Source: an uncultured Pelagibacteraceae bacterium
GTDB lineage: Bacteria > Pseudomonadota > Alphaproteobacteria > Pelagibacterales > Pelagibacteraceae
Direction: 5' to 3'
DNA: 64,000 bases
Assembly: GCA_902595115.1 (NCBI GenBank)
Contig: CACJOS010000005.1
Location: forward strand, 1 to 64,000
In this document: in pieces, positions 3,213-37,814 of the stretch
Layout: the number at the start of each line of letters is the position of its first letter
Position numbering within the stretch: position 1 is the stretch's first letter
Program-made: the position numbers and the translations under genes
Notes under the pieces: model-generated
What the model saw: the letters and a program-made list of their open reading frames with translations, nothing else
Databases searched by the model: none
What the model was told of the DNA's origin: nothing

Positions 3213-5172
3213 TGGTGATGATTCAAATGTACGAAAATTTAATACCATAAATAGAAGAGTTTTTATTCTATCTTTAGCAAAAGGAATTGTATTTACAGGA
3301 ATATTAGCAAGATTATTTACTCTTCAAATAAGTGACAACAAAAAATATTTAACTCTATCAGATAAAAATAGGCTTCGAGAATGGAGGCTGCCACCAGTTC
3401 GAGGAGAGTTTAAAGATTATTTTGATAAAACAATTGCCGGCAATATAGAAGTTTATCAATTACATGTCATTCCAGAACAGGTTGAAAACTTTAAATATTT
3501 GATGATTAGATTAAAAAATATTCTTCCTTTATCAAACAATGAATTTGCAAAAATCATTAAGAAAAAAAATCAACAAAAGCCCTGGGAAACACTTATTATT
3601 TCAGAGAATCTAACCTGGGATCAATTTTCCAAAGTAAATTTTTATTTACATGAACTATCTGGAGCCAAACCTGTTCTATCTGTTGTAAGAAGCTACCCTT
3701 TTAAGGAAAATTATACTCATGTTTTGGGATATGTTGCTCAAGCTAGTGAAAATGATTTATTAAATAATGAAAACATAAAAAATAAACATGTTCCTGGACT
3801 AAGAGTTGGAAAAACAGGTTTAGAAAAATCTTTTGAAAACGATTTAATAGGTACTAATGGTGTTCAAAGATATGAAGTTAATGCATTCGGAAAAAGAATA
3901 AAACAAGTCAATTTCCAAAAAGGAGATAAAGGAAAAGAAATTAAACTTACTCTAGATACTGAAGTTCAAAAATTATGTAATGATTTGCTGGCTAATAAAG
4001 CTGGATCTATTAGCGTAATGGATATTTATTCTGGTGAAGTTATTGCGATGCATTCTTCTCCTTCGTTTGATCCAAACTTATTTTTATATGGAATAAGTTA
4101 TAAAGATTGGGATGAAATTAGAGATAATCCTGACAAACCATTAATTAATAAAACTATTTCGGGACTATATTCACCCGGATCCACTATAAAACCAATTGTA
4201 GCTTTATCAGCTCTTGAAAATAATGTTATATCACCGAACTTCAAGGTCAGGTGCACTGGAAAGATGGAAATGTATGGCCAAACATATCATTGTTGGAAAA
4301 AAAAAGGACATGGAGTTGTAGATCTTAGAGGTGCAATTATTCAATCCTGTGATACTTATTTTTATGAAATGTCCAGAAGGCTTGGAGTCGATAGGCTTAA
4401 AGTAACAGCTTCTAGATTTGGTCTTGGTAATAAAGTTTTTGATAATTTATATAAAGAGGAAAAAGGAGGATTATTTCCATCTACAAGTTGGAAAAAAGCA
4501 AATCTTGGTCAGGGTTGGGTGTTAGGGGAAACTTTAATAACTGGAATTGGACAAGGTTATGTTCAAACAACTCCTCTTCAGTTATGTTTAATGACTGCTC
4601 AATTAGCAAATGGTGGTTTTAAAATTTATCCAACACTCGTTTCTAATAAAAATCAAGAAAGTCTTGAAAAAATTAAGTATAAGATGGCACAAAATCTTAT
4701 TACTGAAGAAAAATATGATTCATCCATAATCAGGACAGCTGAAGAATTTTTTAATCCAGGAGAAAAAGATTATAAAAAACTTTTCAGAAATCAGGAAAAT
4801 GTCAAATTTGTTTTGGAAGCAATGTTTGCATCTACAAATCAATGGAATGGAACTTCATACAAATCAAGGATCGAGGATCCAAAATATCAATTTGCAGGAA
4901 AAACGGGAACTGCGCAGGTTAAGAAAATAACGGAAGAACAAAGGGAATTAGATCTTGAGACATCCCAAATACCTTATGATGATAGAGATCATGCTTGGTT
5001 TGTTGCGTTTGGTCCTTATAAAAACCCTAGGTATTCAATCAGTGTTTTTGTTGAGCATGGTGGATCAGGAAGTAAAGCAGCTGCACCATTAGCTAAACAA
5101 GTAATTAAAAAAGTTATAGATAGACACGAGGAAAGAGAAAAAATTAGACAGAGAAATTTAGTAAATATATAA
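3193..5172 (+). CDS. mrdA: Penicillin-binding protein 2 (start may be the internal ATG at 3205)
   Basis: Transpeptidase motifs SPGSTIKP, SCDTYFYE, AGKTGTAQ. Confidence 0.95.
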   Translation: MEARMFSGDDSNVRKFNTINRRVFILSLAKGIVFTGILARLFTLQISDNKKYLTLSDKNRLREWRLPPVRGEFKDYFDKTIAGNIEVYQLHVIPEQVENFKYLMIRLKNILPLSNNEFAKIIKKKNQQKPWETLIISENLTWDQFSKVNFYLHELSGAKPVLSVVRSYPFKENYTHVLGYVAQASENDLLNNENIKNKHVPGLRVGKTGLEKSFENDLIGTNGVQRYEVNAFGKRIKQVNFQKGDKGKEIKLTLDTEVQKLCNDLLANKAGSISVMDIYSGEVIAMHSSPSFDPNLFLYGISYKDWDEIRDNPDKPLINKTISGLYSPGSTIKPIVALSALENNVISPNFKVRCTGKMEMYGQTYHCWKKKGHGVVDLRGAIIQSCDTYFYEMSRRLGVDRLKVTASRFGLGNKVFDNLYKEEKGGLFPSTSWKKANLGQGWVLGETLITGIGQGYVQTTPLQLCLMTAQLANGGFKIYPTLVSNKNQESLEKIKYKMAQNLITEEKYDSSIIRTAEEFFNPGEKDYKKLFRNQENVKFVLEAMFASTNQWNGTSYKSRIEDPKYQFAGKTGTAQVKKITEEQRELDLETSQIPYDDRDHAWFVAFGPYKNPRYSISVFVEHGGSGSKAAAPLAKQVIKKVIDRHEEREKIRQRNLVNI

Positions 5173-22439: not shown

Positions 22440-23780
22440 ATGATTACTTCCATGGTGGAAAATTATCAAAAAAGTAATAGATTGCCAATTAAAAACATGT
22501 TTTTTGGTAAGAAAAAAGAATTGAAAAATGAGGTAGAGGATACTAGTAGCAAAGATTTGGCTATTGTAACTCAAATGAACCAGGAGTTTGCAAAGTCTCT
22601 TGATTTGAAAGAAACATTACAGAATTCATTAGAAGTAATTATTAAAAGAATTAATGCGCAAGCAGCAAACATTTTTCTTATTGATGACAAAAGCCAAACA
22701 TTTCAGTGTATTGCATCCAAACATCAAGCTTACCTAGAAGATTTTGAAATACCAATTACTCAAGGTGTAATGGGAAAAGCAGCAGTTATAAAAAAATGTA
22801 TTAGAGTTGGAGATGTAAGAAAAGATGTAAGAGAAATTGCAGAGTTTTATTTTGATTTAGATAACAAAACAAATTTTACTACATATTCTGTTTTATGTTC
22901 ACCATTAATTGTTTCAGGGGAATGCATTGGTGTTATACATTGTTTAAATAAAAAAACTGGCAATAAACTTTTTGAAGAAAATGATAGAAAACTTTTAGAA
23001 ACTTTATCTGGACCAGCTGCTTTAGCAATTAGAAATGCAAAGATGGCAAAAGATTTAGTTGAAAAGAATAGAATGCAAAAAGAAATAGAAATTGTTGGTG
23101 AAATACAAAAAACTTTATTATCTCAAAACAAAAAAGAAAATTTTCCAATCGCTGGAATAAATATTCCTGCAAAAGTAGTTTCAGGAGATTTTTATAATTT
23201 CGCAGAGATTTCAGACGGAGTTTTTGGATTTGGTGTTGCAGATGTTTCAGGTAAAGGAATTAAATCATCTTTGTTAATGTCAAAGGCTTCAAGTCTTTAT
23301 AGATGTTTAAGTAAAACAAATTTTTCTGCAGCAGAACTTTTAAATATTTTAAATTCTGAAATATGTGAGACTACTTCAAGAGGAATGTTTGTTACAATGT
23401 TGATAGGAATTTATGATAGCAATAAAAAAGAATTAACTTTAGCAAACGCAGGACACGAACCTCCGTTAATTTATTCTAAGAACGGAAACTTTTCTAATTT
23501 TGAAGAAGCAGGTCCACCACTTGGTATTGCACCAAAATTTAAATTTAAAGAAACAAAAATTAATTTTTCTAATAGCTCAATGTACATTTTTACTGATGGT
23601 ATTACGGAGATTAAAGATGCAGAAGGAAAAATGTTAGAGTCTCAAGGTTTCCAAAATTATATAAAGAAGTATCAAGAAGTTCCAAACAACGAAAGATTAA
23701 ATAAAATTATTGAAGATATAATTAAATCTGGTCGGATACAGAAAGATGATTTAACAATTGTGGTTGTTGATGGTAAATGA
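22440..23780 (+). CDS. GAF-PP2C (RsbU/SpoIIE-like) serine phosphatase
   Basis: GAF-like block, then PP2C blocks VSGDFYNFAEI, GFGVADVSGKGIKSSLLMSKASSLYR, LANAGHEPPLIY, TDGITEIKDA. Confidence 0.9.
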   Translation: MITSMVENYQKSNRLPIKNMFFGKKKELKNEVEDTSSKDLAIVTQMNQEFAKSLDLKETLQNSLEVIIKRINAQAANIFLIDDKSQTFQCIASKHQAYLEDFEIPITQGVMGKAAVIKKCIRVGDVRKDVREIAEFYFDLDNKTNFTTYSVLCSPLIVSGECIGVIHCLNKKTGNKLFEENDRKLLETLSGPAALAIRNAKMAKDLVEKNRMQKEIEIVGEIQKTLLSQNKKENFPIAGINIPAKVVSGDFYNFAEISDGVFGFGVADVSGKGIKSSLLMSKASSLYRCLSKTNFSAAELLNILNSEICETTSRGMFVTMLIGIYDSNKKELTLANAGHEPPLIYSKNGNFSNFEEAGPPLGIAPKFKFKETKINFSNSSMYIFTDGITEIKDAEGKMLESQGFQNYIKKYQEVPNNERLNKIIEDIIKSGRIQKDDLTIVVVDGK

Positions 23781-24082
23781 TTGGTATAAGCAAGATAATG
23801 ATTATATTTGGGATAATTCTTACAACTATTTTGTATTGGGCCTCAAGTAATGTCTGCAGATATAACTTTGCAATAGAAAAAAAATCAAATATATTAAATA
23901 TAATTACTAATGAAATAGATCCTTCGTTATATCAATCAAGAAATTTTTACTTTAAAGAATTAAATTGCAATAAAGTTAATCTAGATTTTAATTTAGAGAG
24001 AATGATTGATAACTTTAGAACAATAACTGTAATGGTCTACCAAGAATTAAATACAGATATAAGAGGAAACCCTCTTGAATAG
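23777..24082 (+). CDS. Small exported or membrane-anchored protein, unknown function
   Basis: N-terminal hydrophobic helix; overlaps stop of the PP2C gene (ATGA). Confidence 0.6.
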   Translation: MIGISKIMIIFGIILTTILYWASSNVCRYNFAIEKKSNILNIITNEIDPSLYQSRNFYFKELNCNKVNLDFNLERMIDNFRTITVMVYQELNTDIRGNPLE

Positions 24083-24633
24083 GTAAAATTTGATTTATTT
24101 CATAATTAATTCTTTAATTTAAAAAAATTTAAAAAAAAACAATTTAAAAGTGCATTATTTTTAAAAATTTTTCTAAAAATTGTACAATTTAAGGTAGAAA
24201 AAAAATTTATTTGTCAAATTTTTCATCTTTTGTGAAAATTTTGAGCTCTAAAATAAAAAAATTTTTATAAAAAAATATCTCTAACACAAAAAGGTACTAC
24301 TCTAACACAAAAAAAGTTAATTATTTAATAATTGTAATTATTGTTGATTTTATTGAGTTTTTTGAAAATTTAAAAATTTAATATTCTCTAACACAATTTA
24401 AAAACCTGACTTGTGTTAGAGTTTTTAAAAATTGTGTTAGAGATTTGTAAATTTACCACAATTTCAAAAATTTTGCTTAAAATTTTTTTTTAATTAAAAA
24501 GTGTTGATTTAATTGGATTTTTGCATAAATAGCCCATTTTGGTCATGCAACTTATAGTTATGTGTTAGACTTACAATGATATTTGTGTTAGAGATTCGTA
24601 AATTTGTGTTAGAGAAAATATATTTAAAATGAT
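24083..24633. promoter_or_regulatory. Long AT-rich intergenic region carrying an array of TTGTGTTAGAG/CTCTAACACAA motifs
   Basis: CTCTAACACAA at 24279-24289, 24300-24310, 24386-24396; TTGTGTTAGAG at 24411-24421, 24432-24442, 24583-24593, 24604-24614; near match ATGTGTTAGAC at 24560-24570. Confidence 0.8.
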
Positions 24634-27000
24634 ATGAACGATCAAGACGACGAAAAAAAAATAGTTAACGAGGAAAGTTCTCAGTCAAATGATGAGAATC
24701 AACCAAAAATTGATTCAAATGATAGCACAAAACCTGAGGAGAGTTCAAATAATGAGACAACTTCTGAGGGAAATGAGAGTAAAGATCAAAAAGTTGACCA
24801 AAATCAAGAATTAAGAGTTGAGAGCAGCACAAACGACCAAGATTCTGGTTCTGGCCACCAAGTAATACATAAAAAAGATGGAAGATTACATATTTATGTA
24901 AGGCAAGATAAGTATAAAGGCGAATTAAAATCAAAAAATTGGGTAGGTAGACTTTATATTGACGGAAAACAAAAAATTTCTTCTTCAGGTACGACGAATT
25001 TGGATGAAGCAATACCAATTCTTGAAAAATGGTACGATGACGTTATTGCTGAGAGCGAAAGATTAAAAAAACAAAGTGTTCAAGCAGAAAATATTGAAAA
25101 TCAAACAAGTGTTGAGGAAAATAAACCAAATATTAATGAACAACCTGCGCCTACCGCTTCAGTACCCGAGAGTGTAGCTGCAAACCAAAACACAGAAAAT
25201 AAAACTTCAGATCAAGCAACTCAAGCTCAAACAACAGAAAGCTCTGAAGTTTCAAAAACGGATCAAGTGAAAAGTAAACTAACAAATATATTTGGAAAAT
25301 TAAAAGATATTAAAATTAAAAAACCAAATATATCAGGAATTAAAACACCAAAACTTTCAGCAGGCTCAAAAAATAATTTAAAATCTAAACTTGAAGGTTT
25401 TTTTAAATCTAAACTTGGAAAATCTTCCGTACAAGGTGAAGAAATTCTTGGTGTGGAATTATCTAACAAAGAAATTAGACTTGCTCAAATTTCAAGTAAC
25501 AAAGCTAATCAATGGGTTTTAGAAAAATTTCATACCCACAAAATAGAAATTTCAGATGAAAGTACAGTTTTAGAAAACGCTGATAAATTTACAGAAGAAC
25601 TTAAATTAGTCCTTCAAAAATATAAAATTTCTACTCCTAATGCAGCTTTGTCAATACCAGTTACAAGCGCGATAATTAGAGTTGTAACTGCCCCACTTAT
25701 GAAAGAAGAAGAATTACAGAAAGCTATCGAAACAAACTCATTGTGGGAAAACTTAGTTCAATTAACTGATAATCTTGACGACTATTCTATTTTTCATCAA
25801 GTAATAAATAAAAATGAAAAAGCAAATACAATGGATATATTGTTCGTTGCTTCAAAATTAGCAGACATTAATAGTTATACAACAATTATTAAAAATGCTG
25901 GATTAAATCCAGTGATCATTGATGTAAAATGTTTTGCATTGAAATCTGCAGTAGATCAAATTAACCAAATTTCAAATAAAACTGAGGATGCAAATTTAAC
26001 TGCTGTATTAGAGTTTGGTTTAGATGAAAATTATTTAATGATATTGTACGATAATAACCCAATTATTACTGATATATTTTTAAGAGGATTAGACAGAAAA
26101 ATTATTCTATCCTCACAAGATGTCGAAGAGAAAGAGGGACTTGTTAGAAGGTATGTAACACAAGTTAAACAGGCAATTCAAGATTTTGAGACTAAATACG
26201 AAAAAAGAATTAGAAATATTAAAGTTGTATCCGATATTGAAAACGTAGAAGAATATTTATCTTTTTTTAGACGCCATTTAATGAATGTTGGTTTTAATCT
26301 TTTTGACCCGATCGAGGGTTTAAATGTTCCAAAGCAATTCGAAGAAAAAGTAAATCTACCAAATAGATCATATCTTACAACAGCTATTGGTCTTGCATTT
26401 AGAAAATTAGATGTATTCGGTTACTATAAATTTGTTACTGCAGTAAAAAATATCAACTTATTGCCAAATAGACAAAGCATGTTCAAACAAAAGAAGATGA
26501 AGGCAATTTCTGGTTTCGCCTTCAAGGGCGTAGCTGCAACTGTTGCAGGGCTATACTTAATTTTATTTTCTTTATCATTTTGGCAAATTTATTCATATAA
26601 CAAGCAATTATCTGATTATGAAAAGGTAAAAAAAATTCATGTTGAGAAAGGAAAAGAAGTTAAGGAAATTGATAAAGAGTTAAAGCTAATTGAGACCACA
26701 TTAAAGTTGAGCAGAACTTTAAAATCAAACAAGGAACTTACATATAGAGTTCTTGCACAAGTTGCTTCTAGTGTACCAAAAAGGGTAAGATTTGACTCTG
26801 TTGAATACAACGGGAAATTTAATATCACTATTCAGGGTATCGCGGCTACTGACCAAGACATTTTAAAATTTATTGAAAATTTAGGAAAACAAAAATTGAT
26901 AGAACAAGCATCCTTGTCATCAATGAAACTTCCAAGATCAACTGTAGGAGGAGCAACAATGAAAGGATTTAGAGTTTTTGTAAAAATTAAAAGAGGCTAA
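24634..27000 (+). CDS. pilM: Fused PilM-PilN pilus assembly protein with long acidic/linker N terminus and arm/AP2-like segment
   Basis: PilM actin-like region (ILGVELSNKEIRLAQIS..., NAALSIPVTSAIIRVV...) followed by PilN-like NINLLPNRQ + TM + coiled coil + VRFDSVEYNGKFNITIQGIA. Confidence 0.85.
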   Translation: MNDQDDEKKIVNEESSQSNDENQPKIDSNDSTKPEESSNNETTSEGNESKDQKVDQNQELRVESSTNDQDSGSGHQVIHKKDGRLHIYVRQDKYKGELKSKNWVGRLYIDGKQKISSSGTTNLDEAIPILEKWYDDVIAESERLKKQSVQAENIENQTSVEENKPNINEQPAPTASVPESVAANQNTENKTSDQATQAQTTESSEVSKTDQVKSKLTNIFGKLKDIKIKKPNISGIKTPKLSAGSKNNLKSKLEGFFKSKLGKSSVQGEEILGVELSNKEIRLAQISSNKANQWVLEKFHTHKIEISDESTVLENADKFTEELKLVLQKYKISTPNAALSIPVTSAIIRVVTAPLMKEEELQKAIETNSLWENLVQLTDNLDDYSIFHQVINKNEKANTMDILFVASKLADINSYTTIIKNAGLNPVIIDVKCFALKSAVDQINQISNKTEDANLTAVLEFGLDENYLMILYDNNPIITDIFLRGLDRKIILSSQDVEEKEGLVRRYVTQVKQAIQDFETKYEKRIRNIKVVSDIENVEEYLSFFRRHLMNVGFNLFDPIEGLNVPKQFEEKVNLPNRSYLTTAIGLAFRKLDVFGYYKFVTAVKNINLLPNRQSMFKQKKMKAISGFAFKGVAATVAGLYLILFSLSFWQIYSYNKQLSDYEKVKKIHVEKGKEVKEIDKELKLIETTLKLSRTLKSNKELTYRVLAQVASSVPKRVRFDSVEYNGKFNITIQGIAATDQDILKFIENLGKQKLIEQASLSSMKLPRSTVGGATMKGFRVFVKIKRG

Positions 27001-27002
27001 TT

Positions 27003-27692
27003 ATGGACTTAAATATTGATTTAAAAAATTTAAAAGTCGAAGATATAAAAGAAAAAATTTTAAAGTTAGCAGATAAAAAAACTTTAACTAAAATAGGTAT
27101 TGCGGTAGGAGCTGTAATATTTTTCTTAATCATTTACTATGCAGTTTTAAATCCAATAGTTAATAAGAAAAAAATCCAATTAGATGACATGAACAAGAAA
27201 AAACAGGAAACTGTTGAATTTGTTCAACAAATAAAATCAAAACAAAGAAAAATTAAAAAACTTAAACCAAGATATGATCAGTACTCAACTTTATTCCATT
27301 CAAAAGCTGAGGTGGAAGGCTTGTATAACACTTTAAGTTTATTTGCTGGAGAAAATGATTTAGTTATTTCGAAAATTGAAAAAAAAGAGATAAAGCAGGT
27401 TACCAAATCAGCTGCACTTGCCAAAGTATCTAAAGGCAAAAAAAAGAAGAAAAAAGCAAAGAAAAAAGGTGCAATTAAAAAAGAAAATGTGGCTTACTAC
27501 ACAATCCCAGTAGATTTTGAGATTACAGGTAATTTTATTGGCTATATTAAGTTTAAAAGAGCTCTGTCTCTATCTAAAAAAATGTTAAACTTTGACAAAG
27601 AGTCAATCAAAGTGGTAAAAGGGGATTCAACCGGGACGATAAAAGTAAGTGGAACTTTAACGATAGTGGGGTTGGCTGATGACTTTTTTTAA
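27003..27692 (+). CDS. pilO: Type IV pilus assembly protein PilO
   Basis: N-terminal TM, coiled coil, ferredoxin-like C-terminal region; position between pilN and pilP; Lys-rich insert KGKKKKKKAKKKG. Confidence 0.75.
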   Translation: MDLNIDLKNLKVEDIKEKILKLADKKTLTKIGIAVGAVIFFLIIYYAVLNPIVNKKKIQLDDMNKKKQETVEFVQQIKSKQRKIKKLKPRYDQYSTLFHSKAEVEGLYNTLSLFAGENDLVISKIEKKEIKQVTKSAALAKVSKGKKKKKKAKKKGAIKKENVAYYTIPVDFEITGNFIGYIKFKRALSLSKKMLNFDKESIKVVKGDSTGTIKVSGTLTIVGLADDFF

Positions 27693-28173
27693 AACATTAA
27701 TTTCATCGATAGTAATTTTATTATTATTGGTTAGCCACTCTATGTCTGATAACCACGATAAAGAGCAAAACATTATTGAGAAAGCTAAAAAAATTAATCA
27801 AGAAGTTAAAAAAGAACAAGCATTAAAAAGTGCAGAGGAACCATTACCGCTGAACGATCCTTTTGTAGGCGATTCTTCAATAAGCGGCAGAACAGAAGTT
27901 AAATTATTAGAAAACGATCAAACTAGTAGCGAGCCTAAAGCAGGTGAGAGCTTGTACAATTACAAATTGGTAGGAGTTGTAGCTAGTGAAGCAGATAGCT
28001 TTGCAACACTTATAAACGCTGGTGGAGACACACTCACATTAAAACTTTTTGAAGAATTAAGTCCAGGAGTAAAGTTAGTTGCACTTAATAATAATGAGGC
28101 CGTATTTGAAAGAGATGAGGACTCATATTTAGTAATAAATTTTAAAAACCAGATTGTTGAGAGGGCAAGATAA
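27679..28173 (+). CDS. pilP: PilP-like pilus assembly protein
   Basis: Signal sequence, DPF motif (LNDPFVGD), HR-domain-like YKLVGVVASEADSFATLINAGGDTLTLKLFEE. Confidence 0.7.
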   Translation: MTFFKTLISSIVILLLLVSHSMSDNHDKEQNIIEKAKKINQEVKKEQALKSAEEPLPLNDPFVGDSSISGRTEVKLLENDQTSSEPKAGESLYNYKLVGVVASEADSFATLINAGGDTLTLKLFEELSPGVKLVALNNNEAVFERDEDSYLVINFKNQIVERAR

Positions 28174-28176
28174 AAA

Positions 28177-29760
28177 ATGAATAAATTAATTAACAAAACA
28201 ATATTAATTTTATTTATCTCAATTATCGCCTTATCAGGTTGTCAAACCAATCAAAAAGATAAATTCAAATTTGGAAAAAAATATAAGCATAACACTCCTT
28301 TAATAAAAACTGATGTAAAAGAATTAGGAAAAAAAGAAATAGATCAAACTGTTGATATGGGACCAACTCCTGTTGAAGGTGATGTTATAAAGTTAAATAA
28401 AAGAAAAAAAATTTCCTCAGTTAAAGAAAAAAACTATCTATTAATACCTGACGACTATGATCTTCTAAAACAAAATGTAACATTTAAGTTTCAAAATTTA
28501 GATTATAAAGAAGCAATGAACTTAATGGCTAAAATTGGTGATATAAATATTTTAGTTGGTGAAGATGTTGCTGGATCTGTAACAGCTGAGTTAGTCGAAG
28601 TTCCGTGGGATAAAGCGTTTAATGCTCTTTTAGATATTAAAAGTTATGCAGCAGATATCGATGTTGCAAGTAATATTATTAGAGTTGCAACTCCTTCTAC
28701 TTTAACTTCTCAAGAAAGCTACAAGTCAGCAAGAGCCTCTGCTGTTAAAAAGAAAATCGAAATAGAAGACTCTGTTGAACCTATAGTTTCAGAAATTTTT
28801 AGATTATATTATATCTCTCCAGCCGAAGCTAAAGCTACAATATTAGAACTATTTACACAGACGGCTGGAACAGGAAGCTTTGTTCCGATCCAAGTGACTG
28901 AAGAAAGCACCACAAGATCAGTAATTGTCAGAGGAAAAGAAAAGGATTTAGATGTTGTAGATAAAGTAATTAGAGAAATTGACGTAAGAACAAAGCAAGT
29001 ATTGATTGAAGCTTTTATAGTTGAGGCAACATCAACTTTTGAGAAAAGATTAGCTACGAAACTTGGTGGAGCTTATACAAGAAAAAGTCTGAGAGCCGCA
29101 GGTACGGGAGGAGATGGACCGACTATAACTTCTGGTCCAAGTGGATCTGAAGGTGCAGATTTTACTGCAGATACAGCAGCAATCACAGGTGCGGGATCTT
29201 CAGGCGCTGATGGAATATTTAATTTTAATGCTTCTGGTACCATACCAGCTACCGCAGGTTTAGGTGTATTGAAAAAGACACCTGCTGGTATATTAAGAGT
29301 TCAGATAGAAGCTTTACAAGCAGAAGGACAAACAAAAATTATTTCAAACCCTAAACTTTTTTCCTTAAACAATCAGTCAGCATCTATAACTCAAGGTATT
29401 CAAATACAAGTACCAGGAAGCGGAGACAGCCCGGTCACATTTAAAGACGCAGCTTTAAAAATGCAGGTAACTCCAAATATAATAGGAGATGGAAATGTTC
29501 TTTTAGATATCCAAGTAAATAATGACTCTCCAGTTGGATCAGCAGGTAGCATAAATACAATGGAAATACAGACTAAATTGCTTATTGCTGATGGTGATAT
29601 AGTTGTAATAGGTGGGATAAAGAAAAATGACATCTCAGATAACCTAGAAAGCGTGCCAGGTCTTAATAAGTTGCCGGTTGTAGGAAAAATGTTTTCAGGT
29701 AAAGGAAAAGTGGATAATATGTCTGAACTTTTGGTATTTATAGCACCGAGAGTACTTTAA
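28177..29760 (+). CDS. pilQ: Type IV pilus secretin, lipoprotein type (PilQ/MshL-like)
   Basis: Lipobox ALSGCQ; N-domain KEAMNLMAKIGDINILV; secretin core VLIEAFIVEAT... and C-terminal VIGGIKKNDISDNLESVPGLNKLPVVGKMF...ELLVFIAPRVL. Confidence 0.9.
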   Translation: MNKLINKTILILFISIIALSGCQTNQKDKFKFGKKYKHNTPLIKTDVKELGKKEIDQTVDMGPTPVEGDVIKLNKRKKISSVKEKNYLLIPDDYDLLKQNVTFKFQNLDYKEAMNLMAKIGDINILVGEDVAGSVTAELVEVPWDKAFNALLDIKSYAADIDVASNIIRVATPSTLTSQESYKSARASAVKKKIEIEDSVEPIVSEIFRLYYISPAEAKATILELFTQTAGTGSFVPIQVTEESTTRSVIVRGKEKDLDVVDKVIREIDVRTKQVLIEAFIVEATSTFEKRLATKLGGAYTRKSLRAAGTGGDGPTITSGPSGSEGADFTADTAAITGAGSSGADGIFNFNASGTIPATAGLGVLKKTPAGILRVQIEALQAEGQTKIISNPKLFSLNNQSASITQGIQIQVPGSGDSPVTFKDAALKMQVTPNIIGDGNVLLDIQVNNDSPVGSAGSINTMEIQTKLLIADGDIVVIGGIKKNDISDNLESVPGLNKLPVVGKMFSGKGKVDNMSELLVFIAPRVL

Positions 29761-29767
29761 AATTGTT

Positions 29768-31519
29768 ATGCTAAAAATAAGTAGAGAAAGCGAAATTAAT
29801 TTAATTAACGTCTTAATTGATAATGACGTTATATCTGGCAAAGATTTAATAAGTATAAAAAAAAATAGTACCGAAGGTAATAAGTCACAAATTGAAGCTG
29901 TATTTGATTTAAAACTAACTGATGAAGATAAGATTTTACAACTTTTAGTAAAAGAGCAAAATCTTGAAGTGGAAGATTTATCTAAAATTGAAATTTCAGA
30001 TGATATTAAATCAGTACTGCCATCTAATTATATTAAAGTAAATTTTGTTGCACCTTTCAAGATAGATGGAAAAACACTTCATATAGCTATACCAGACAGT
30101 TCCAAACTTGGCTTAATGAGAAACCTTAAAGCAATAACAAAAAAAAATATTGAATTGCATGGTGCTAAAATAACTCAAATTTCAGAATTTATAGAAAAAT
30201 TAACTAGCGAAAGTGGCGAAGTTACAGCGGCAACAATTAGAGAAGAAAATAAAGAAAAGACAAAAACTTTTGATTCTGATTTAGGTGAAGCAGGAGAAGT
30301 TCTAGAAAAAGCACCAGAAGAAGATATAGAAGCAATTGAAAATGAATCTGAAGTTATTAAGTTTAGTACTGCAGTTGTTGCAGATGCAATTAAATCAGGC
30401 GTCAGTGATATTCACATAGAACCATATAGGTTTTCATCTAGAGTAAGATATCGTTTGGATGGAATGCTTCAAGAACAAGAGCAGTATAGAAAATTTTTAC
30501 ATGATAACTATGGTGCAGTTGTTACAAGATTTAAGATAATGGGCAAACTAGATATTGCTGAAAGAAGACTTCCTCAAGACGGAGCAATAAATTTCAAAAT
30601 TGATGGAAAAGTTGTTGACCTTCGACTATCGATTTTACCAACAGCAAACAATGAAAGAATTGTTATGCGGGTTCTAAACAAAGACGCAGGAGATATAACT
30701 TTAGAACAATTAAATTTTGATGATGCGGATTTAAAAAATTTAAGAAAATCAATACATAGTACTCAAGGATTAATTCTAGTTACTGGACCAACTGGATCTG
30801 GTAAATCAACTACCTTGTATAGTATATTAAAAGAAGTTAGTAAGCCTCATCTTAATATTTTAACAGCTGAAGATCCTGTCGAATATGAACTTGATGGAGT
30901 TGGACAAGTTCAAATTAAGGATGACATAGGATTAACTTTTGCATCAGCCCTAAGATCTTTTTTAAGGCAAGACCCTGAAATAATACTCGTCGGAGAGATG
31001 CGGGATAAAGAAACGGTTGATATTGGTTTGAAGGCTGCATTAACCGGGCACTTAGTATTTAGCACACTGCACACTAATGATGCACCAAGTACAATCACAA
31101 GATTGCAGAACATGGGAACTCCAGATTATTTAATTAGTGCAGCTTGCCAATTAGTTTTAGCACAAAGACTTGCAAGAAGAACTTGCAAAGAATGTAGAGT
31201 ACCAGACGAAGATGTAACACCAAAAGTTTTACAAGATTTAGGATTTACAGCTGAACAAGCATCAAGAGCTAAAGCTTTCAAAGGAAAAGGTTGTCCTAAG
31301 TGTAAGGATACAGGTTATAAAGGTCGTCAAGGTATTTATGAAATACTGGTTGTTTCAAAACCATTAAAAGAAGCAATATTAAGACAAGCAACAACTCCTG
31401 AACTTAGGGAAATTGCAATCAAAGAAGGCTTCCAAACAATGCAAGATATGGGAAGAAGATTAATTTCTGCGGGAGATCTTAATTTTAGAGAGTACGAAAG
31501 AGTTCTCACTTCAGAATAA
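29768..31519 (+). CDS. pilB: Type IV pilus extension ATPase PilB (GspE family)
   Basis: GPTGSGKSTTLYSIL; AEDPVEYELDGVGQVQI; tetracysteine motif CKEC...CPKC. Confidence 0.93.
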   Translation: MLKISRESEINLINVLIDNDVISGKDLISIKKNSTEGNKSQIEAVFDLKLTDEDKILQLLVKEQNLEVEDLSKIEISDDIKSVLPSNYIKVNFVAPFKIDGKTLHIAIPDSSKLGLMRNLKAITKKNIELHGAKITQISEFIEKLTSESGEVTAATIREENKEKTKTFDSDLGEAGEVLEKAPEEDIEAIENESEVIKFSTAVVADAIKSGVSDIHIEPYRFSSRVRYRLDGMLQEQEQYRKFLHDNYGAVVTRFKIMGKLDIAERRLPQDGAINFKIDGKVVDLRLSILPTANNERIVMRVLNKDAGDITLEQLNFDDADLKNLRKSIHSTQGLILVTGPTGSGKSTTLYSILKEVSKPHLNILTAEDPVEYELDGVGQVQIKDDIGLTFASALRSFLRQDPEIILVGEMRDKETVDIGLKAALTGHLVFSTLHTNDAPSTITRLQNMGTPDYLISAACQLVLAQRLARRTCKECRVPDEDVTPKVLQDLGFTAEQASRAKAFKGKGCPKCKDTGYKGRQGIYEILVVSKPLKEAILRQATTPELREIAIKEGFQTMQDMGRRLISAGDLNFREYERVLTSE

Positions 31520-36434: not shown

Positions 36435-37814
36435 ATGAGAAAAATATTGTCTTTAATTGTTGGCTTTATATTTTTAACTACATCCTTGCATGCCGAGGAG
36501 AAACTAACAATTGAAAAACAACTAGTTGGTATTGTTGGAGCTATAAATGGAACTGTTAAAACAGGTAACAGAACTCTAAAAGCTGGTGACAAGATATACT
36601 TAAATGAAACAATCTTTGCAGCTGAAAACTCAGGAACACAAATCTTACTTTTAGACCAATCAACTTTTACAATTGGTGCAGAGTCAGAAGTTGTGATGGA
36701 TACCTTTATATATGATCCAGAGACAAACGATGGAAAAATAGTTGCAAGTGTAAAGCAAGGAAGCTTAAAAGTAATTTCTGGATTAATTAGCAAAAAAAAT
36801 CCAGATAGTTTAACAGTAGAAGTTCCAGAAGGAACACTAGGATCTAGAGGTACAGAATTTCAGACTAATGTAACTAAAGGAAAAACAGATACATTATTAA
36901 TCGGACCAGGAAAAAATAACACTTTAGGATTAAGACCTGGAGCAGTACTTGTTGGTAATGATAAAGGTCAAACTTTATTAAACAAACCTTACAGTATAGC
37001 AAGTATGACAAAAGGAAAAGCACCTGGTAAAGCAAAACAAATTACAAAAGCACAATTGAAAAAATTCAATAAAAAAATGAAAGCTTTGAGAGTAGCAAAA
37101 GCTTCTGGTGCTTCAAAAGAAGAAAAGAAAGCGCTTAGAAAAAAAATTAGACAAGAATTAAAAGCACAAGGTTTTGAAAAGGAAGAAATTAGATCGATAA
37201 TAAAAGAGAACTTCAAAAAAGATAAAGAGCAAAGAATTGTTTTGCTTAACGAAAATGAACCACAAACGAATGAGTTAGAGGTTGACCAAAATATTGCTGA
37301 AGAAGTAGAAGCTCAAGAAATAGAGGTTGCTGAACCAGATGCTCCTAAGGCTACTGAAGAGAAACCAAAGAAAGAAAAAGCTAAAAACAAAAAAGGTAAA
37401 AAGAAAAAAGATAAAGCTAAAAAGAAAAAAGGTAAAAAGAAAAAAGAAAAAGCTAAAAAGAAAAAAGGAAAAAAGAAAAAAGAAAAAGCTAAAAAATCAA
37501 AAGGTAAAAAGAAAAAAGCTACTAAGAAAAAAGCAACTAAGAAAAAAGCTACAAAAAAATCAACTAAGAAAACAACAAAGAAAAAAGCTACTAAGAAAAA
37601 AGCTACTAAGAAAAAAGCTACTAAGAAAAAAGCACCTAAAAAGAAAAAAGCAGTTAAGAAAAAAGCACCTAAAAAGAAAAAAGCAGTTAAGAAAAAAAAG
37701 GTTAAAAAGAAAAAAGTAGTTAAGAAGAAAAAAGTAGTTAAGAAGAAAAAAATAGTTAAGAAAAAAATTGCTAAAAAGAAGAAGAAGAGAAAAAAGAAGA
37801 GAAAAAAGAAATAA
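36435..37814 (+). CDS. Exported FecR-domain protein with extreme Lys-rich C-terminal tail
   Basis: Signal peptide; FecR-like block LKAGDKIYLNETIFAAENSGTQILLLDQSTFTIGAESEVVMDTF...GTLGSRGTEF; Lys-rich tail from about residue 310. Confidence 0.8.
   Translation: MRKILSLIVGFIFLTTSLHAEEKLTIEKQLVGIVGAINGTVKTGNRTLKAGDKIYLNETIFAAENSGTQILLLDQSTFTIGAESEVVMDTFIYDPETNDGKIVASVKQGSLKVISGLISKKNPDSLTVEVPEGTLGSRGTEFQTNVTKGKTDTLLIGPGKNNTLGLRPGAVLVGNDKGQTLLNKPYSIASMTKGKAPGKAKQITKAQLKKFNKKMKALRVAKASGASKEEKKALRKKIRQELKAQGFEKEEIRSIIKENFKKDKEQRIVLLNENEPQTNELEVDQNIAEEVEAQEIEVAEPDAPKATEEKPKKEKAKNKKGKKKKDKAKKKKGKKKKEKAKKKKGKKKKEKAKKSKGKKKKATKKKATKKKATKKSTKKTTKKKATKKKATKKKATKKKAPKKKKAVKKKAPKKKKAVKKKKVKKKKVVKKKKVVKKKKIVKKKIAKKKKKRKKKRKKK
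37375..37811 (+). repeat. Lys-rich coding tandem repeats (12-aa AKKKKGKKKKEK units, then 5-aa KKKAT units)
   Basis: In-frame 36-bp and 15-bp repeat units read directly in the sequence. Confidence 0.85.

Follow-up and report, generated by a model that had tools for sequence, protein, structure and literature searches.

The DNA upstream of a type IV pilus operon in an uncultured marine bacterium carries one short sequence many times over, and the question that this locus raises is which protein recognises these repeats and to what end. The window that we analysed is a 64,000-nt stretch of a 919-kb genome (72% complete) from the SAR11 group, family Pelagibacteraceae. Seven exact copies of TTGTGTTAGAG and an eighth with two mismatches span 336 bp upstream of pilMN:

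24279..24289, minus strand: site 1, arm-type-like, exact TTGTGTTAGAG, kept in relatives
24300..24310, minus strand: site 2, exact TTGTGTTAGAG, 21 bp from site 1
24386..24396, minus strand: site 3, inner left arm, exact TTGTGTTAGAG
24411..24421, plus strand: site 4, inner right arm, exact TTGTGTTAGAG
24432..24442, plus strand: site 5, exact TTGTGTTAGAG
24560..24570, plus strand: site 6, ATGTGTTAGAC, two mismatches
24583..24593, plus strand: site 7, exact TTGTGTTAGAG
24604..24614, plus strand: site 8, exact TTGTGTTAGAG, 21 bp from site 7, with the start codon 30 bp further on

A re-reading of the sequence bore out what a preliminary description had reported here, namely eight motif positions with three minus-strand copies on the left and five plus-strand copies on the right, three start-to-start distances of exactly 21 bp, a perfect 11-bp inverted repeat formed by the two inner copies (sites 3 and 4), and a near match at 24560 that differs by two bases. 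Since many relatives carry a site at the same place as this near match, mostly one mismatch off the consensus and often reading TTGTGTTAGAC, site 6 is very probably a genuine eighth site. The place of site 4 is empty in some relatives, which have a second minus-strand site nearby instead. An order-2 Markov model predicts approximately 0.03 exact copies for the window as a whole and 0.00017 for the 336-bp span of the array. The preliminary description had also raised the possibility that such clusters arise by chance; in 30 windows simulated with a Markov model, only pure A/T 11-mers clustered more than three times in 350 bp, and no comparable cluster of other composition appeared. Its remark that no further full copy had been noticed in the window could be extended to the whole 919-kb genome (72% complete), where no exact TTGTGTTAGAG was found outside the array and all seven exact copies lie at this locus. 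Matches with at most one mismatch number 27 genome-wide, seven of them being the array itself, and a reversed control pattern gave 15; one-mismatch copies outside the array are near background. A dispersed DNA uptake sequence was excluded because the motif is confined to a single locus, with seven exact copies there and not hundreds across the genome. A search for phage DNA similar to the array gave no match.

We then compared the array across relatives. A search of 101 related genomes found clusters of exact copies in 16, all of the same genus, and each of the 75 distinct pilMN upstream regions of the extended-PilMN type that are at least 450 bp long contains 4-9 sites. Across 597 sites from 90 distinct upstream regions, the 10-bp core TTGTGTTAGA is nearly invariant, sites are most often, and by a wide margin, 21 bp apart, and the intervening DNA drifts. 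The array, first noticed in one stretch of DNA, is a real, old and conserved feature. In the main clade it follows a common plan, with two minus-strand sites on the outer left near -355 and -334 from the start codon, the inner sites lying at about -250 to -200 and the promoter-proximal ones, on the plus strand, at about -74, -51 and -30. It invariably adjoins the pilMN start codon, regardless of the gene upstream, and in most relatives it ends approximately 30 bp before that codon. Site layout and upstream gene vary by clade; motif and PilMN domain are constant. Six distant long-form pilMN upstream regions contain the array in a different layout, and in other genera of the family the domain and the array were also found, again before pilMN and next to other upstream genes, the neighbour in several cases being a divergent reading frame that looks PilT-like by eye. 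In other genera and distant members (L180-L184, L231 and L232), the array often stands between pilMN and this divergent frame and therefore could serve two promoters. Longer arrays of about 10-11 sites lie upstream of pilMN in L076 and L082; in L082 the conserved Trp of the domain (ELKSKNW) is replaced by Leu.

The gene that the array adjoins encodes an unusual pilus protein, followed by further pilus genes:

24634..27000, plus strand: pilMN, an N-terminally extended PilM-PilN fusion of 788 aa (Pfam PilM_2 E 8e-22, PilN E 4e-9)
24856..25071, plus strand: PilMN residues 75-146, an N-terminal domain predicted to be integrase-type and arm-binding (alignment, AlphaFold, integrase homology)
26527..26583, plus strand: candidate transmembrane helix in the PilN part, residues 632-650 (hydropathy)
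27003..31519, plus strand: downstream pilus genes pilO?-pilP?-pilQ-pilB, in the same direction as pilMN

The PilM_2 and PilN domains and the position in a pil operon identify PilMN as a type IV pilus PilM/PilN protein. The pilO and pilP assignments are by position only, for two frames that have no Pfam match; the secretin gene pilQ and the ATPase gene pilB follow. Pfam contains no family for the N-terminal extension of PilMN. Its domain comprises about 65 residues, lying between unalignable linkers in the long forms, and is the best-conserved part of extended PilMN proteins: its median pairwise identity is 91%, and PilM reaches 80%, PilN 62% and the linkers on either side 18-25%. The domain profile has a single match in its own genome, so PilMN is the sole carrier found there. 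AlphaFold models give a beta-beta-beta-alpha fold (pLDDT 79 and 85) that returned no significant PDB match with Foldseek. Searches of the PDB by sequence and by fold produced nothing significant and no integrase among the fold matches, the weak top matches being largely dsRNA-binding domains. Arm domains of the Tn916 type also fold into three strands and a helix, and that of Tn916 has been described as dsRBD-like in topology, which we treat as a lead only. Since PilN spans the inner membrane, and the candidate helix at residues 632-650 would do so in PilMN, whose topology we take by analogy with PilN, the N-terminal domain should lie on the cytoplasmic side.

Presence of the domain and presence of the array coincide. 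In a sample of 61 genomes (G000-G060), the array cluster occurs in all 16 with extended PilMN, in none of the 10 with short PilMN, not in the one with another distant PilM type, and in none of the 34 without a PilM match. Roughly half of the genus's orthologues are of the short form, aligning only from residue ~228 onward, and no array was found in 11 short-PilMN upstream regions that were read directly. The main weakness of this correlation is that it is close to one evolutionary event seen in many genomes, because a single change explains the split between domain and no-domain proteins on the PilMN tree. Under midpoint rooting, which is provisional, the tree would read as a joint loss in the short clade. 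This sister clade, which has neither domain nor array, offers a natural control.

Having delimited the domain, we looked for it in other proteins. The PilMN profile matched the N-termini of two proteins of ~425 aa in the order (E 4e-28 and 5e-29), both tyrosine integrases (PF00589), and a third SAR11 integrase with the domain is 87% identical to one of them. Outside the order, one alphaproteobacterial integrase matched (E 1.8e-4); moreover, integrases from alphaproteobacterial plasmids align with the domain in this N-terminal part, ahead of the core-binding domain, and Rhizobium and Asticcacaulis integrases can be aligned with the PilMN domain. The N-terminus is where complex tyrosine recombinases have their arm-binding domain, and this domain recognises arm sites in the vicinity of the recombination site (PMC8138268). 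PilMN contains neither the core-binding nor the catalytic domain of a tyrosine recombinase and is not itself a recombinase. Its N-terminal domain was apparently captured from an integrase of the phage or mobile-element type, and since such domains occur broadly in integrases we infer that the transfer ran from integrase to pilus. The loci of the three SAR11 integrases are:

L175, 2961-4235: arm-domain tyrosine integrase, by tRNA-Leu(CAA)
L176, 3103-4380: arm-domain tyrosine integrase, by tRNA-Leu(CAA)
L188, 1498-2754: arm-domain tyrosine integrase, by tRNA-Leu(CAA)

At all three, a gene that looks like a serine recombinase by eye stands beside the integrase. The non-coding flanks of the integrases hold TTGTGTAAGAG, TTGTGTAAGAC, TAGTGTAAGAG and similar sequences, and TTGTGTAAGAG differs from the pilMN motif at one base only (position 7, A for T). 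Specifically, 1341 bp of flanking DNA contain 11 matches within one mismatch of TTGTGTWAGAN compared with 0.41 in shuffles, a comparison that is only indicative because the regions were picked after the matches in two of the loci had been seen. The motif lies on both sides of the integrase at two of the three loci and on one side at L188. The integrases found with this domain number only three, two of which resemble each other. The near-identical motif beside them ties the domain to the motif without recourse to the pilus locus.

The arm-type domain also occurs on IMG/VR contigs classed as viral (L217 at 3971-4327, L218, L219 and L220), where it was found only with the integrase profile, the PilMN profile giving nothing in IMG/VR. 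There it is part of a protein of ~115-119 aa with a hydrophobic helix C-terminal to the domain, that is, a membrane-anchored copy; membrane tethering of the domain has therefore arisen elsewhere. These contig fragments contain no exact match to the site motif, and one-mismatch matches do not exceed the control; the protein might conceivably act on the pil array of a host. A tblastn search of phage records for the domain found none.

What the data show is that the array is conserved, that it co-occurs with the domain, that this domain is related to integrase N-termini and that a near-identical motif lies at integrase ends; that PilMN physically binds the sites, loops the DNA and regulates its own operon, and in which direction, we infer. 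We hold with considerable confidence that PilMN is the protein that binds the array. That autoregulation is the array's main function is a proposition toward which we lean, and the full reading that we favour, and consider reasonably probable, is that the repeats are arm-type sites bound by PilMN through its captured integrase domain, mainly as an assembly-coupled autoregulator. PilMN, as a PilM-PilN platform protein of the inner membrane, would bind the arm-type sites before its own operon through its cytoplasmic N-terminal domain. Several PilMN subunits of one platform, or free PilMN, would occupy the 7-8 helically phased sites in their two opposed arms, the long flexible linkers allowing subunits of one platform to reach several sites, and the occupied arms would loop the 336 bp before the pil operon, perhaps with the aid of IHF or HU. 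In lambda, Int subunits similarly connect arm sites with core sites (PMC4880445). The amount of PilMN present or assembled would then set how strongly pilMN and the genes that follow it are transcribed. The sign of this control is a guess; it is probably negative, because sites 7 and 8 abut the start codon. The preliminary description had offered a cooperative operator, an iteron-like site or a recognition sequence linked to the type IV pilus. The first and the last fit, because the array always adjoins pilMN and is absent where PilMN has no domain, and the sites lie at the start of the operon and are conserved there; a replication iteron found no support among the neighbouring genes. To this we add a probable binder, PilMN itself, and the probable arm-type nature of the sites.

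Two further sequence elements in the array region may contribute to such a complex:

24341..24363, unstranded: accessory element TTGTTGATTTTATTGAGTTTTTT, between sites 2 and 3
24501..24523, unstranded: accessory element again, as GTGTTGATTTAATTGGATTTTTG, oriented like the first copy
24593..24597, unstranded: GATTC, a GANTC (CcrM-type) site sharing the last base of site 7

The accessory element TTGATTTTATTGACTTTTTT, searched for with a loose pattern, is present in the left half of 52 of 55 aligned upstream regions, and the right copy in 16 of 55 with the same pattern. It is reminiscent of an IHF/HU bend site. On the other strand the left copy reads A6-N8-AATCAA, which fits the IHF consensus, and the third conserved block (TTR) does not fit in this copy; relatives have HU-, IHF-alpha- and IHF-beta-like genes with scores below the curated NCBIfam cut-offs. 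The junction of a site with GATTC at the promoter-proximal position recurs in 49 of 55 upstream regions of relatives. CcrM-like PF01555 methyltransferases scored above the cut-off in 27 of 31 relatives, and none was found in the 72% complete genome studied here. The junction and these enzymes may add a cell-cycle input. A promoter scan of the array region performed no better than on shuffles, and a terminator scan was likewise uninformative.

An alternative is that PilMN binds the array so as to tether the locus, chromosome or pilus physically and not to control transcription. Each genome examined has a single array, on opposed arms, whose up to about 10-11 sites (L076 and L082) exceed the needs of a simple operator; PilMN is a membrane protein with long variable linkers, and in L217-L220 the domain belongs to a short protein anchored by a membrane helix at its C-terminus. 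However, a pure tether would need neither a position directly before pilMN, which is always seen, nor a distance of ~30 bp from its start codon, which is seen in most relatives; we regard this alternative as rather unlikely. A combined arrangement, in which pilus assembly, locus position and transcription form one physical system and the platform protein in the envelope holds its own operon, is a tentative idea that we rate as possible and somewhat doubtful; perhaps it would include gating by GANTC methylation and mimicry by phages that encode the membrane-anchored domain.

Another transcription factor might instead bind the array, the PilMN domain doing something else and hitch-hiking in an exchanged pilus cassette. 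The tree shows a single joint change of the two, domain and array, so their linkage could be historical. This account is nonetheless improbable, as it leaves unexplained the near-identical motif flanking integrases that have a homologous domain, the top conservation of the domain within PilMN, and the persistence of motif and domain despite changing layout and upstream gene. Arm-type sites set in two opposing arms, with what may be IHF-like elements in between, and the integrase-derived domain would also suit a relic or live attP-like attachment site of the mobile element whose integrase gave the domain to pilM. We think this very improbable, since no domain-bearing integrase was found in the 72% complete genome, where the domain profile matches only once, the window has no tRNA and no visible integrated element, the array shows no sign of a core-type site or crossover, and it is under evident selection in dozens of lineages. 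That the repeats act as RNA, with the perfect 11-bp inverted repeat of sites 3 and 4 folding into a 5' leader hairpin, has the slightest likelihood of all, since most sites repeat in the same direction with no partner close by and their sequence is kept beyond mere pairing potential, which points to recognition of duplex DNA.

The proposed binding of the array by PilMN as an autoregulator has partial parallels in known systems. Like the arm domains of lambda Int, Tn916 Int and the complex tyrosine recombinases (PMC8138268), the PilMN domain is small, N-terminal and joined by a flexible linker, and like the lambda arms (PMC4880445) the array consists of short repeated sites in opposed arms, possibly with IHF-type elements between them. 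Unlike integrases, PilMN has no core-binding or catalytic domain and is fused to a pilus platform protein, and its sites flank no attachment core but stand at a presumed promoter. PilMN shares PilM_2 and PilN domains, and an operon with a secretin and a PilB ATPase, with other type IV pilus PilM/PilN proteins, but it is one polypeptide with an additional putative DNA-binding domain at the N-terminus and an array. We know of no counterpart of this combination among PilM/PilN proteins, nor of any type IV pilus structural protein that binds DNA sequence-specifically, and a search of the open-access literature yielded no paper on this motif or on a DNA-binding domain in a PilM. ToxR and CadC are membrane-anchored one-component regulators, and PilMN would work in a similar manner, as a membrane protein with a cytoplasmic DNA-binding domain and multiple promoter sites; in contrast to these, its domain is not a winged helix and the carrier is itself part of the pilus machine. 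Replication iterons are likewise phased short direct repeats for several copies of one protein, whereas the array is chromosomal and lies at a pilus operon, with pilus genes and an RsbU-like gene as neighbours and no Rep protein encountered among them. If the favoured reading is true, an integrase domain of a mobile element has been recruited to regulate a surface machine, in a group that is among the most abundant ocean bacteria and is credited with a very small regulatory repertoire.

Two minor features of the neighbourhood were also observed. Between the RsbU-like gene and the array, positions 23777-24082 encode a small protein of 101 aa that has a hydrophobic helix in its N-terminal part and matches no Pfam family. 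At 27446-27800, within the gene in the pilO position, and at 37397-37530, A-rich 11-mers, AAGAAAAAAGC and GCTACTAAGAAAAAA among them, lie in clusters and are probably lysine-rich coding repeats.
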